Assembly (NCBI RefSeq): GCF_900107415.1
Contig: NZ_FNPX01000005.1
Span: 62,001-126,000, forward strand
Reading direction: 5' to 3'
Source: Jannaschia faecimaris
GTDB lineage: Bacteria > Pseudomonadota > Alphaproteobacteria > Rhodobacterales > Rhodobacteraceae
DNA: 64,000 nucleotides
This document shows, in pieces, positions 24,101 through 28,782 of the stretch (position 1 is its first letter; every line of letters begins with the position of its first letter). The position numbers and the translations under genes were made by a program. The notes beneath the pieces were generated by a model. It ran no database searches. It saw only the letters and a list, made by a program, of their open reading frames with translations, and was not told the origin of the DNA.

Positions 24101-24586
24101 TTAAAAGACCCCAAGGCTCAGCCCGGCACCCATGCCTGTACCGAGGTCGCGACACTTAGTGAGATCGTCTTCTGAAATAGTCTTCGCCGCCAAAATCTCC
24201 TCGGGCGTCTGCGCGTGGGTGCAAATGATGAGCGGGGGCTGGACCTCACGAAGCCGCCAACCTTGGGCAATTCGAGCTGTTTGGCGTGCTGCGTTTTCGC
24301 CGTCAGACCCCGCACAAACCATCTGCGCATAGGGACGGCCTTCAATGTGTCCTAGGGCCGGATAATAACAGCGGTCGAAGAAGTCCTTCATGATCCCCGC
24401 GATCGCCGCCAGGTTTTCCGGACCGCAGAAGATATAGCCATCAGCCTGGAGCAGATGTTCGGGCTCAGCCTCGTGGGCAGGCTTTAGGATAGTCTCAACT
24501 TCGTCACGTGCCGCCGTCGCCGCCGCCTCGGCCATTTGCCGACTGCCGCCAGTCTTTGAGTGATATACCATGAGAAGCTGTGCCAT
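24101..24586 (-). CDS. Flavodoxin/NAD(P)H-dependent oxidoreductase family protein
   Basis: A 161-residue flavodoxin-fold protein from ATG 24586. The FMN phosphate-binding loop is in MVYHSKTGGSRQMAEAA, and the second flavin-contact loop is GPENLAAIAGIMKDFFDR, typical of small NAD(P)H:quinone or azo-reductase-like flavoproteins; it would carry out two-electron reduction of an unknown acceptor. The frame is open upstream to 24721 but the extra residues have no flavodoxin character. The upstream bases show TATACT nine bases before the ATG, so the message may be nearly leaderless. The gene stands alone between the chaC pseudogene and the insertion sequence. Confidence 0.82.
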   Translation of the reverse strand: MAQLLMVYHSKTGGSRQMAEAAATAARDEVETILKPAHEAEPEHLLQADGYIFCGPENLAAIAGIMKDFFDRCYYPALGHIEGRPYAQMVCAGSDGENAARQTARIAQGWRLREVQPPLIICTHAQTPEEILAAKTISEDDLTKCRDLGTGMGAGLSLGVF

Positions 24587-25137
24587 TCCGAAACAAGTAT
24601 ACTGTGTGGGGGGTGTGTCCAGAAGGCATGGTGCACCCCACCGCATCGACGGGACTGGGCCGCAGGACCAGACAAGCTCCCTCGGTCCAGGCCCGATTGG
24701 GAGCCATTTTGACCCCGACAAGAGCGCCGGTAAAAAATCCGAAGAGCGATCAGCGACAGTTATTGCTTTGTCTACTGATGCCGCTGAACTTGCCTACGCA
24801 CGGGAGCAAAGGACAGATCTGGATAACGCTGTTCCATTGCCGGGGCTGTGGCCTGCCCGTGCGACGAAATGCGCGTTCTGGATAATCTAAGAGGCTCGAC
24901 GGGCGGTCTCAGCCTCCGGGCACTAAGGGGCCCGGTGCCAGCGTCAGGTCGACCAAGTATAGAATTTCTTGGACGTGCCGATACGAATGGCCTATTCGAC
25001 TTTGTTGCGAAACACCAAGCGAACTATCGGGACGTAAAACGCGAACATCAATTTTCGCAGAAATGGCACACAGAGTTAGTCACAGGTCGTCGGCACAACG
25101 GTCACTGGTGATCATCGCCGCGAAGGGCAACTTGGAG
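24587..25137. other. Gene-poor region between the flavodoxin-like gene and the insertion sequence
   Basis: About 550 bases with several short open frames but none with protein-like features or a credible ribosome binding site. TATACT (24596-24601, minus strand) is a probable -10 box for the flavodoxin-like gene. The rest appears to be non-coding or decayed. Confidence 0.35.
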
Positions 25138-25776
25138 CCGATTCTGTGGAAAGGGGACCTTTGCAAGCGCAGCAAAGTTGGTCTGATTGAGGCCGAGCGG
25201 CCTTCTCCATCAGGGTGTTGCGGCTTTCGGCGGTGCCGGGAAGATATTAGCTGGTTTCCGGAGGTTCTGGGCGGTTGCTGCGAGGAGGAATTCATCGTTT
25301 GCGCCGTTCGGTTCGCGTAACCGGAGCCGTCCCAGGCCGAGGATACGTTTGAGGTGTGCGAAGAGCATCTCGACCTTCTTCCGCAGCCGCATCGAGATCA
25401 CGTAAGCGTCCGTTTTTGCGATGTCGCGGGCGACCTGGCGGGCGTCCTCATGTTCCTCGCGGGTGATCTTTCGGGTGTCGGCGTTCGGGCAGCATTTGGG
25501 CTTCCACGGGCAGGCCTGGCAGACCCCCTTGAGGGCCCGGTAGCGGGCGGTGCCCTTATCACTCGGGCCGCGGTTCGGGTCGGAGTAGTTGCGGCGGAAC
25601 TGCTTGAGGTCCTGGCCCTCGGGGCAGACGTAGCGGTCGTTCTCCGGGTCCCACTCGAAGTCAGCACGTGACCAGGTGCCGTCGGTCCGACCCGACTTAT
25701 CGACGACCGGGATATGCGGCGCAATCTTGCGATCCACTAGCCATCCGAGCATCGGACCGGTGCCGTAGGCGGTGTC

Positions 25777-25817
25777 CACTGCCCGGCAGTGCATCGCGTA
25801 GCGATGTCACGAGAGGG
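25777..25817 (-). repeat. 41-nt double-hairpin palindromic element, copy A
   Basis: Read on the minus strand it starts CCCTCTCGTGA, then a perfect hairpin CATCGC-TAC-GCGATG and a second hairpin CACTGCC-G-GGCAGTG. It sits between the transposase codons for RAIA and DTAYG and shifts the frame. Removing exactly 41 bases restores the family sequence, so no target duplication is apparent. Confidence 0.85.
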
Positions 25818-26003
25818 GGCGATCGCGCGCCCTGGGTGGAGATCGAAGCGCGCCTTCACCCGCTCGAGCATGGTTTTTGTGGACCCGACCTCCGCCTGGC
25901 GGATCGACCTCGTCGTCTCGACGTCGAGGATCACGCCGTGGTCGGTGTCGACGAGATAGTTGTCGGAATAGCTGAAGAACGCCGGACCCTTGCGCGCCGC
26001 AGT

Positions 26004-26044
26004 CTATTACCGCAGGGCACTGCGCAGCAGTGTCCCGAGAGGCA
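26004..26044 (-). repeat. 41-nt palindromic element, copy B (variant 3' end)
   Basis: Read on the minus strand it has CCTCTCGGGA followed by the hairpin CACTGC-TGC-GCAGTG and CCCTGC; its last bases (GGTAATAG) differ from copies A and C, so the second hairpin is lost. It lies after the codons for SDPASQ, before TAARKGP. The family usually has a tryptophan at this point, so the inserted length may be 38 rather than 41 bases. Confidence 0.8.
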
Positions 26045-26224
26045 CTGGCTAGCCGGATCGGAGAAGGAGGTGAACTTTCGCTCCACCTCCGAGGCCGCGC
26101 CGAAGGCCGCCTCGTCGAGAACCTCCAGATACTCACGCACGGCACGCGGCGCGGTCTCCGCGTCGATCCGCGCCGGATCCCAGTCTTCCGTCGCCGCAGA
26201 GTACTGCATGTTGGCGTCCGCCTC

Positions 26225-26265
26225 CCCTCTCGGAACATTGCTGTGCAATGCCCTGCCGGGCAGTG
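26225..26265 (+). repeat. 41-nt double-hairpin palindromic element, copy C (opposite orientation)
   Basis: Read on the plus strand it has CCCTCTCGGAA, then CATTGC-TGT-GCAATG and CCCTGCCGGGCAGTG. It is inserted in the opposite orientation to copies A and B, between the codons for ARLI and EADAN of the transposase. Both arms of its first hairpin differ from copies A and B in matched positions. Confidence 0.85.
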
Positions 26266-26982
26266 GATGAGGCGCGCGTCGATGGCCATCCGTTGCCCGC
26301 TGACCAATCCTTCGGCGATGCAGCGCGCGACGACCGTCTCGAACAGATGCCGCAGCAGTTCGCTGTCGCGGAAGCGCCCATAACGGTTCTTGGAGAAGGT
26401 CGAGTGGTCTGGCACCCGGTCGGTCAGGTCGAGCCGACAGAACCAGCGATATGCGAGGTTCAGATGCACCTCCTTGCAGAGCCGTCGCTCGGACCGGATG
26501 CCAAGGCAATAGCCGACCAGCAGCATCCGGATCAGCAGCTCCGGGTTGATCGAGGGGCGGCCGGTATTGCTGTAGAACGGTGCCAGATGCTGACGGATGC
26601 TGGACAGCTCGACGAAGCGATCGATGGATCGCAGCAGGTGATCCTGAGGGACGTGATCCTCTATCGAGAACTCGTAAAACAGAGCGCCCTGCGCCTCCTG
26701 CCTCGACCCCAACATCGCAGATCCCCCCTCATCACTACGAAAAGTGAACCAGCGACCAGGCCCCAAATCAACAAGAGTCCTTCAACGGAATAAGCCCAAA
26801 CTCGCCGATGCTTCAGGATGGACAAATGGCTGCTTTCGATGGCCCGCTCATCACGGCAACATGAAACGTTTTCGAGCTGTGCTTTGCACGAAAGTCCAAT
26901 CTCGCGACTTGGGTCAAATAATAGGCAGACTCGCATAATGTGTTACGCTGGCTCAATATCGCAGCGAAAAGGGAGGACTGAA

Positions 26983-28782
26983 ATGCTCGACACCACCGTT
27001 TCTGATCAAACTCAGGCGTTCTTGGACGAATTTGGCGGGGCGCTATCAAGAGGGGATATTGCCGTCGCAAGTGACATGTTCGAAGACGATTGTTATTGGC
27101 GTGATCTTGTCAGTTTTACTTGGAACATCAAGACTGTCGAAGGAAAAGAACAGGTTGCAGATATGCTGTCCCATCAGCTTGCTACAACGCAGCCCAGCGG
27201 ATGGAAAATTGCCGAGGGCGAAGTTCCAACAGAAGAAGGTGGCGTAACGACAGCTTGGATTGAATTCGAAACAGAGGTCGCGCGGGGTTACGGTCTAATG
27301 CGCCTAAAGGGCGACAAGATCTGGACCCTTCTTACGACTATGACGGAGCTGAAGGGTCATGAGGAGCCAGCCGGCGATAATCGGTCGATGGGTGCCAAGC
27401 ACGGGGCGGGAAAAAACAAGGCGACTTGGGCCGAAGAACGCGCCCGCGAAGCGGCCGAGCTTGGCTACGAAGTGCAGCCCTATTGTGTCATCATCGGCGG
27501 TGGGCAGGGTGGCATTGCGATGGGCGCGCGGTTACGCCAGCTTGGCGTACCGACGATTATTGTCGAACGTAACGAGCGGCCCGGCGACAGCTGGCGTAAC
27601 CGCTACAAGTCGCTCTGCTTGCATGACCCGGTCTGGTACGACCACCTCCCCTACTTGAAATTTCCCGAGAATTGGCCGGTGTTTTCGCCCAAGGACAAGC
27701 TTGGCGATTGGCTGGAGATGTACACCAATGTGATGGAGCTGAATTATTGGACACGCACCACAGCCAAATCTGCCAAGTTTGACGAGGCATCCGGCGAATG
27801 GACCATTGTGGTGGACCGCGACGGTGAAGAGGTTGTTCTAAAGCCCAAGCAGCTTGTTATGGCAACCGGCATGTCGGGCAAAAAGCGGATGCCAGACTTT
27901 CCCGGGATGGAGGCGTTCCAAGGCGTTCAACAGCATTCGTCGGAACATGATGGGCCTGATGCTTGGTCCGGCAAGAAGGTTGTTGTTGTGGGGTCAAACA
28001 ACTCAGCACATGATATCTGCGCCGCGCTTTGGGAACATGACGCCGACGTCACGATGGTACAAAGGTCTTCAACTCATATAGTGCGTTCAGACACCTTGAT
28101 GGAGGTGGGGCTTGGCGATCTGTACTCCGAACGAGCGGTTGCGGCGGGTGTGACGACGGAAAAGGCGGACCTGATCTTCGCGTCGTTGCCGTATCGCATC
28201 TTACACGAGTTCCAGATCCCGGCTTATGCGGCCATGAAAGAGCAAGACAAAGAGTTCTACGACGGGCTGGAAAAGGCCGGCTTCTGGCTGGATTGGGGCG
28301 ACGACGAAAGTGGGCTGTTCATGAAATATCTGCGGCGTGGGTCGGGGTATTACATTGATGTTGGTGCAAGCCAGTTGATTATCGACGGAGAGGTCAAGCT
28401 GAAGCGCGGTCAGGTCACAGCCTTGGATGAGACCGGTGTGATCCTGGATGACGGAACACATCTGGATGCGGATCTGGTGGTTTACGCAACTGGCTACAAC
28501 TCAATGAATGGTTGGGTCGCTGATCTGATGGGTCAGGAGAAGGCTGACCAGCTTGGCAAGTGTTGGGGACTTGGGTCTGATACAACCAAGGACCCCGGAC
28601 CATGGGAAGGTGAGCAGCGGAACATGTGGAAACCGACACAGGTTCCAAACCTTTGGATGCATGGCGGCAACCTGCACCAGTCGCGGCACTACTCTCAGTT
28701 TCTGTCGTTGCAGATCAAGGCGCGGATGGAGAGCATTTCAACACCCGTCTATGGGTTACAGGAGGTTCATCACCTCTCCTAG
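26983..28782 (+). CDS. NTF2-like domain fused to a flavin-containing monooxygenase
   Basis: A 599-residue protein from ATG 26983, with GGGAGGA six bases upstream. Residues about 1-130 form a SnoaL/NTF2-like domain (FLDEFGGALSRGDIAVASDM). The rest is a class B flavoprotein monooxygenase: FAD-binding VIIGGGQGGIAMGARL near residue 170, an FMO/Baeyer-Villiger-like motif FQGVQQHSSEHDGPDAW, NADPH-binding VVVVGSNNSAHDICAAL, and a late YATGYNS motif. It would oxygenate a small substrate with NADPH and O2; the substrate is unknown. Third positions are richer in A/T than in neighbouring genes, and it abuts the insertion sequence, which suggests horizontal acquisition. CATAAT at 26934 may be its -10 box. 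A hairpin terminator follows at 28804. Confidence 0.9.
   Translation: MLDTTVSDQTQAFLDEFGGALSRGDIAVASDMFEDDCYWRDLVSFTWNIKTVEGKEQVADMLSHQLATTQPSGWKIAEGEVPTEEGGVTTAWIEFETEVARGYGLMRLKGDKIWTLLTTMTELKGHEEPAGDNRSMGAKHGAGKNKATWAEERAREAAELGYEVQPYCVIIGGGQGGIAMGARLRQLGVPTIIVERNERPGDSWRNRYKSLCLHDPVWYDHLPYLKFPENWPVFSPKDKLGDWLEMYTNVMELNYWTRTTAKSAKFDEASGEWTIVVDRDGEEVVLKPKQLVMATGMSGKKRMPDFPGMEAFQGVQQHSSEHDGPDAWSGKKVVVVGSNNSAHDICAALWEHDADVTMVQRSSTHIVRSDTLMEVGLGDLYSERAVAAGVTTEKADLIFASLPYRILHEFQIPAYAAMKEQDKEFYDGLEKAGFWLDWGDDESGLFMKYLRRGSGYYIDVGASQLIIDGEVKLKRGQVTALDETGVILDDGTHLDADLVVYATGYNSMNGWVADLMGQEKADQLGKCWGLGSDTTKDPGPWEGEQRNMWKPTQVPNLWMHGGNLHQSRHYSQFLSLQIKARMESISTPVYGLQEVHHLS

Follow-up and report, generated by a model that had tools for sequence, protein, structure and literature searches.

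A family of hairpin elements of about 41 nt in Rhodobacterales that lies almost only in transposase genes

In either orientation, a hairpin element of about 41 nt was found almost only in transposase genes, which belonged to many unrelated IS families. The element inserts between two target bases at Y^GAYRR with nothing duplicated or lost, and identical nucleotide positions were occupied repeatedly in diverged ISs. The best reading is that it represents a new, orphan mobile hairpin of REP-like character that has transposase genes as its target. The full explanation, in which the element forms a family of non-autonomous insertion elements of about 41 nt belonging to the Rhodobacterales, is one that we consider somewhat probable.

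The window, which is the whole analysed stretch of 64,000 nt from Jannaschia faecimaris, contains an IS1182-family transposase gene that a sequence-only reading had described as interrupted three times by such an element (Table 1). The gene was aligned with intact IS1182 genes from Jannaschia sp. M317, Yoonia and Thioclava. None of the three carried the inserted residues, and the inserts were the only difference in length, which confirmed that all three copies are real. The first and third copies had the proposed length, whereas the middle copy was shorter than proposed and degraded at its 3′ end. With lengths that all equal 2 mod 3, the copies shift the frame equally, and excision left the single open frame of about 460 codons that had been expected, with no further stop or indel. 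The inversion of one copy relative to the other two was as described, and family-like junctions without target duplication, claimed for two of the sites, were found at all three. An Rfam search of positions 24500–27500 of the window gave no match. Compared to the Jannaschia sp. M317 gene, the gene in the window had an omega of 0.079, and because this value falls among those of intact pairs, the inserts are probably young relative to the divergence of the two genes.

Table 1. The interrupted transposase gene of the window and its three hairpin copies
Feature	Position in the window	Strand	Description and evidence
Hairpin copy 1	25777..25817 (25778-25818 equivalent, one base ambiguous)	-	41 nt, at IA^DTAYG; alignment with three intact IS1182 genes; R1 E=1.1e-16
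Hairpin copy 2	26005..26042	-	38 nt, degraded 3′ end, at ASQW^TAARKG; same alignment; R1 E=4.6e-7
Hairpin copy 3	26225..26265	+	41 nt, at RLI^EADAN; same alignment; R1 E=5.5e-16
IS1182-family transposase gene with three inserts	25210..26715	-	NCBIfam NF033551 on 3 of 4 pieces; 461 codons after excision and translation

A covariance model was built from six copies, and it found 140 copies in 80 fetched regions, which together with 19 copies in the genome of the window gave 159. Exactly 41 nt was the length of 122 of these, and by the bounds of the model 11 of the 159 had a length divisible by three. The compensating base changes that had been noticed between the arms of the first stem recurred throughout the family, with 97.1% of the cells in this stem paired and 122 double-change cells compared to 32.1 in shuffles, a result favoured by an alignment that was fitted to the structure. 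The description of the element as a double hairpin had to be abandoned. A second hairpin was not supported by the pairs 28:40 and 29:39, which were formed in just 15 and in 65 of 101 distinct 41-mers, respectively. Instead, the same 101 sequences showed that the stem extends, with positions 1–3 pairing with 34–36 and positions 8–10 with 27–29. Pair 1:36, which lies past the internal loop, was CG in 80 sequences, GC in 6 and AT in 4; pair 9:28 was GC in 79 and TA in 17; and pair 10:27 was GC in 82 and CG in 12. Because the stem continues in this way and the pairs 28:40 and 29:39 fail, the predicted fold is a single long bulged hairpin followed by an unpaired tail of 5 nt. On the strand read here, the consensus runs N-CC, TCTC, GKG, a bulged A, a 6-bp stem with a 3-nt loop, CMC, TGCC, GG-N′ and the tail, where the end base N pairs with N′ and the tail is mostly of the CARYG type among the distinct 41-mers.

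In the genome of the window, the model found 17 copies at E≤0.001 and 19 below 0.01. The lowest E-value was 5.1e-17, obtained with a model that includes copies from this genome, and because the E-values reach this level a chance origin of the matches is, on these scores, excluded. Further copies were found far beyond the gene in the window. The element was present in 21 of 40 searched genomes, including that of the window, and two genomes had 59 copies each. Within the bacterial family of the window, the Rhodobacteraceae, 73 of 248 genomes carried it (E≤1e-6), and in a class-wide sample it was found in 5 of 289 genomes, three of the five belonging to the same family. On plasmids, 163 places in 92 records matched the element; ten genera are named in this tally, which we take to be roseobacters and their kin, and five more are unnamed. 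A search of phage records gave no match, and three putative viral contigs matched the pattern (IMGVR_UViG_647533124_000002, IMGVR_UViG_3300029259_000663 and IMGVR_UViG_2836636626_000001). A pattern scan of species genomes returned at least 119 stretches, with titles that were nearly all Rhodobacteraceae or Rhodobacterales. The element was also seen in two records titled as other taxa, NZ_JAHVKE010000004.1 (Maritalea mobilis DP3N28-3) and JAFKDC010000007.1 (Enemella evansiae TN21-6), the latter title probably being wrong. Partial elements were observed at contig ends in the genome of the window (G000:C11:258984-258998 and G000:C35:19278-19292), beside residues 120–310 of an IS5 gene. The copies may be undercounted, because the assembly seems to break at multicopy ISs that carry the element.

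The genes that host the element were examined from the flanks. When the flanks of the copies in the genome of the window were joined, 18 of 19 matched transposases in tblastn (IS1182, IS481, IS3 and IS5; a few of the matches were weak), and the nineteenth copy (L067) had the same insertion site as L062, an IS5. In the first set of copies, 61 of 78 site clusters had at least one member that matched a small transposase reference. Fragments for 9 of the remaining 17 clusters gave Pfam transposase domains over the cut-off (IS256, IS66, IS240/IS6 and IS5 types), and the last 8 were covered by weaker matches, HTH domains or assignment by reading. In the species-genome scan, 109 of 121 copies had transposase-matching flanks among the matches listed, and 7 of the other 12 were read by eye as transposases or recombinases (IS5, IS256, IS91, an IS91-type integrase and IS3). 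This left 5 of the 121 outside recognisable transposase genes, four in one repeated Sulfitobacter block and one without an assignment. As a control, 424 other positions of these loci were put through this test, and 21 matched a transposase. The pattern scan demands the exact pattern, which biases element identities upwards (6.3% of different-site pairs were identical), and its set overlaps with the first one, so that the 268 copies with enough flank were merged to 254.

The insertions were exact. In L185, L189, L339 and L345 all 933 reference positions were kept, with L185 and L345 carrying further lesions besides the insert, and no target duplication was seen at the junctions between intact and interrupted sequences in these four loci or in the gene of the window. 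Over 96 sites, the element was preferentially preceded by Y and followed by GAYRR, and the bases farther out showed little preference on either side; on the opposite strand this places the insertion just after YYRTC.

Within the ISPpa8 group of IS5, five positions recurred as insertion sites, at nucleotides 87, ~182, 360, 582 and ~792. Two of these five main sites lie directly before Asp codons that we take to be catalytic. Position 360 (site c, at the codon boundary LLI^DSTGIK) was occupied in 14 of 32 tips of the tree, with L111 and L340 being one physical copy. The distribution at site c required 10 changes compared to a mean of 10.6 with shuffled labels, for which the least was 7, and intact copies were interleaved with interrupted ones. 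The pattern was similar at site a (3 tips, 3 changes) and site d (7 tips, 6 changes), so that intact and interrupted copies were interleaved at three of the four mapped sites. Site b was grouped, with 2 changes in 6 tips compared to 5.7 when shuffled, and its insert may be inherited. Site c elements with flanks less than 75% alike had a mean of 7.75 differences, compared to 9.39 between different sites, and because they differ nearly as much as elements from different sites, many of the site c insertions look independent. A simple target preference was considered as the cause of the hot sites. It was left unsupported by a ranking according to the 6-nt preference, in which the hot sites, instead of leading the 1840 positions, ranged from rank 4 to past rank 149.

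Several other observations were made in IS genes. Copies L175, L178, L124, L149 and L158 had the left flank of one insertion site and the right flank of another; they probably arose by deletion, when two elements within a single IS recombined. A second, unrelated hairpin family with a GGAATTGATCC...GGATCAATTC core interrupts an IS5 gene as an insert of ~61 nt in L185 (2540-2605) and recurs in other roseobacter loci (L211, L242, L244, L222, L300 and L167). A third hairpin type of ~45 nt, AGGATCAGAAAAGGATC...GATCCTTTTC, was seen in L190 and L389 near residue 264 of an ISPpa8-like gene, at or next to a hot site used by the 41-nt element. The habit of interrupting IS genes may thus extend past one hairpin family.

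The repeated use of sites could also be explained by homology, which we think possible but not likely. The hairpin would then pass from IS to IS at one position by strand annealing or gene conversion, in addition to IS transposition, and new sites would be rare; the hairpin would loop out and might evade repair. This account would explain why the element is confined to multicopy DNA. In agreement with this, 26–32% of same-site pairs with flanks 60–80% alike had at most two element differences in the first set, compared to 1.8% of different-site pairs. One exact 41-mer, looked up on plasmids at 7 of 8 places, pointed the same way, as all five placed copies (four on plasmids and one in G004) were at site c of IS5 genes and one of them had flanks only ~60% like the others. 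Among its weaker matches, one of 92.7% in Sagittula was at site c and two others were in IS3 and IS21 genes. The IS481 pair L052 (G000:C3:4822) and L053 (C7:59558) has two inserts in common, one identical over 40 nt, together with a 2-nt flank deletion, at a dS of 1.1, and this looks like copying between the two. The omega of this pair (0.114) mostly reflects the time before insertion, because L053 has a closer relative in an intact copy than in L052. However, the 109 site clusters in many unrelated IS families require many new insertions, different variants occupy one and the same site at site c, and a co-conversion test found raised near-flank identity in only two of three divergence bins. 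The diverse elements at site c favour insertion with a site preference, and the one dominant variant at other sites favours copying between ISs.

The consequences for the host gene were followed through substitution rates. In L117, L138 and L139, whose inserts are apparently common by descent, omega was 0.58–0.65 at a dS of 0.04–0.10, compared to 0.054–0.138 in intact pairs, which suggests that the interrupted gene is no longer kept. That the insert puts the transposase out of use is supported by this one lineage, with one pair (L116 and L123) against it. Inactivation might itself be the purpose of a dedicated system, in which frame-breaking hairpins would be placed at fixed positions of transposase genes by the cell or by a selfish agent. 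A homing-like or guided single-strand process would recognise such genes across many families. IS silencing of this kind would amount to an insertional defence against transposons, and we regard it as doubtful.

Removable inserts, which the sequence-only reading had offered as its second explanation, appear improbable. Here the element would be spliced from the mRNA or skipped by the ribosome and the interrupted transposases would be working. In its favour, the gene in the window has three inserts and no other lesion. This idea was mostly contradicted by the omega values of the L117/L138/L139 lineage and by the interleaving of intact and interrupted copies at three of four sites; the grouping at site b and the pair L116 and L123, each with a site b insert, agree with it. 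This pair had an omega of 0.165 at a dS of 0.71, a value compatible with a gene that stays under selection while carrying the insert, if the insert was inherited. However, the two site b elements differ at 2 of 41 bases, and the inserts may be younger than the split of the two genes. No repeated take-off or landing codon was found at the element ends in the sites read by eye, and many of the interrupted copies carry additional lesions.

An IS may still be copied after interruption, and identical pairs of such ISs are also a point in favour of working transposases. L339 and L350, each 1092 bp long, are identical IS5 copies located 1.27 and 1.64 Mb along the same contig; they have terminal repeats, their flanks differ, and the frame-shifting insert is the only lesion in each. 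An element also lies between orfA and orfB in two IS3 copies of Sulfitobacter pontiacus that are identical to each other. For the interrupted IS5, the simplest account would be movement in trans by an intact relative, and the same genome contains such a relative, L330, which is 78–81% identical in the aligned pieces.

A search for a mover was centred on Y1_Tnp (PF01797). Any match was found in 3 of 23 genomes, and there was none in the genome of the window or in G009 and G017, which have 26 and 59 copies of the element, respectively. G012 (59 copies) had a partial match and G018 (25 copies) a broken one. Among the family genomes, apparently one draw of 248, Y1 was found in 21 and the element in 73, and 11 had both compared to 6.2 expected, so a weak link between the two is possible; 62 of the 73 element-bearing genomes had no Y1 match at E≤1e-8. 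When 33 Y1 loci were scanned with R1, full-score copies turned up only in L359 and L192, where they lay near the ends and did not coincide with them (for L192 from the coordinates alone). The hairpin in L359 was rejected as an IS200 end, because sister Y1 loci put the end of the IS ~110 bp before the degenerate hairpin. A RAYT as the mover was left unsupported, as Y1 is lacking in the genome of the window and most element-bearing genomes. A longer version with an internal gene was sought among half-matches in the fetched loci and none was seen, and a MITE of a DDE IS was rejected on this ground and because there is no target duplication. That a resident RAYT/TnpA-REP moves these elements as ordinary REPs is thus very unlikely: the bulged palindrome of REP size, the one-sided target without duplication and the excess of genomes with both element and Y1 would suit it, but the Y1 searches and the scan of Y1 loci do not, and REPs are mostly intergenic according to the available text of PMC8266576.

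We return to the preferred reading of a mobile hairpin that targets transposase genes. The mobile palindrome with the IS as landing pad, as first proposed, is strongly supported as a distribution by the location in transposase genes of many IS families, the precise insertion and the repeated sites; its movement and its mover we infer from these sequence patterns. The element would move as a folded single strand, with cutting and joining done in trans by an HUH-type enzyme, a mechanism suggested by the reading of one target side and the lack of duplication, as in IS200/IS605. The restriction to transposase genes would then come from targeting together with the spread of the ISs themselves, which can apparently be copied even after interruption, probably through intact relatives.

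Short palindromic repeats are usually regarded as intergenic and moved by RAYTs. IS200/IS605 elements recognise a short one-sided motif beside the insertion and make no target duplication. Rickettsia palindromic elements are palindromes inside protein genes that are in-frame and tolerated, and the double-hairpin and bypassing elements of fungal mitochondria are short hairpins in genes that are skipped or tolerated. Against this background, the present elements form an orphan hairpin family that is at home in the transposase genes of unrelated IS families and hits the same nucleotide repeatedly. The pattern requires either recognition of transposase genes or homology-driven copying of hairpins, both of which are testable in culturable Rhodobacterales, and the family would be a large natural record of IS inactivation. 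A literature search over the titles and abstract openings listed, with most subscription papers outside its scope, gave no account of the 41-nt element.

Among the orphan repeats already described, the nearest are the CGTC REPs of alphaproteobacteria. The available text of PMC3733652 presents these as small palindromes without a dedicated transposase, some of them inside coding regions, with a CGTC (TGTC, CCTC) tag, a stem of 8–9 bp, a loop of 4–5 nt and mostly a CCA tail. For the 41-nt element, the Y1 searches and the fetched loci gave no dedicated transposase. In contrast to the CGTC REPs as presented there, it has a longer bulged stem, a 3-nt loop, a CARYG-type tail, no CGTC tag and a location almost confined to transposase genes. 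The main text of PMC3733652 does not contain the words Rhodobacter, Roseobacter, Dinoroseobacter and Jannaschia. GTAG REPs are described in the available part of PMC8266576 as bulged imperfect hairpins of 20–50 nt that follow a single-strand logic and are moved by RAYT/TnpA-REP. The 41-nt element is likewise an imperfect bulged palindrome in this size range, but unlike the GTAG REPs of that account it has no GTAG tag and is not extragenic, and no cognate Y1/RAYT was found. The earlier label REP-like therefore holds for the bulged hairpin and not for membership, with neither a GTAG nor a CGTC tag present. Like IS200/IS605 (also in the available text of PMC8266576), the element reads one side of the target and duplicates nothing; unlike IS200/IS605, it has no transposase gene, no partner was found, and its ends match no Y1-encoding element among the 33 Y1 loci. 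The suggested likeness to the Rickettsia palindromic elements, which are named in the available text of PMC3733652, extends to both being palindromes within protein genes and is otherwise a poor fit, as the 41-nt element breaks the frame and lies in transposase genes, with 11 of 159 lengths divisible by three and an omega of 0.58–0.65 in one lineage. With the double-hairpin and bypassing elements of fungal mitochondria it shares the form of a short hairpin inserted in a gene, and it differs from them in that one host lineage drifts after the insertion.
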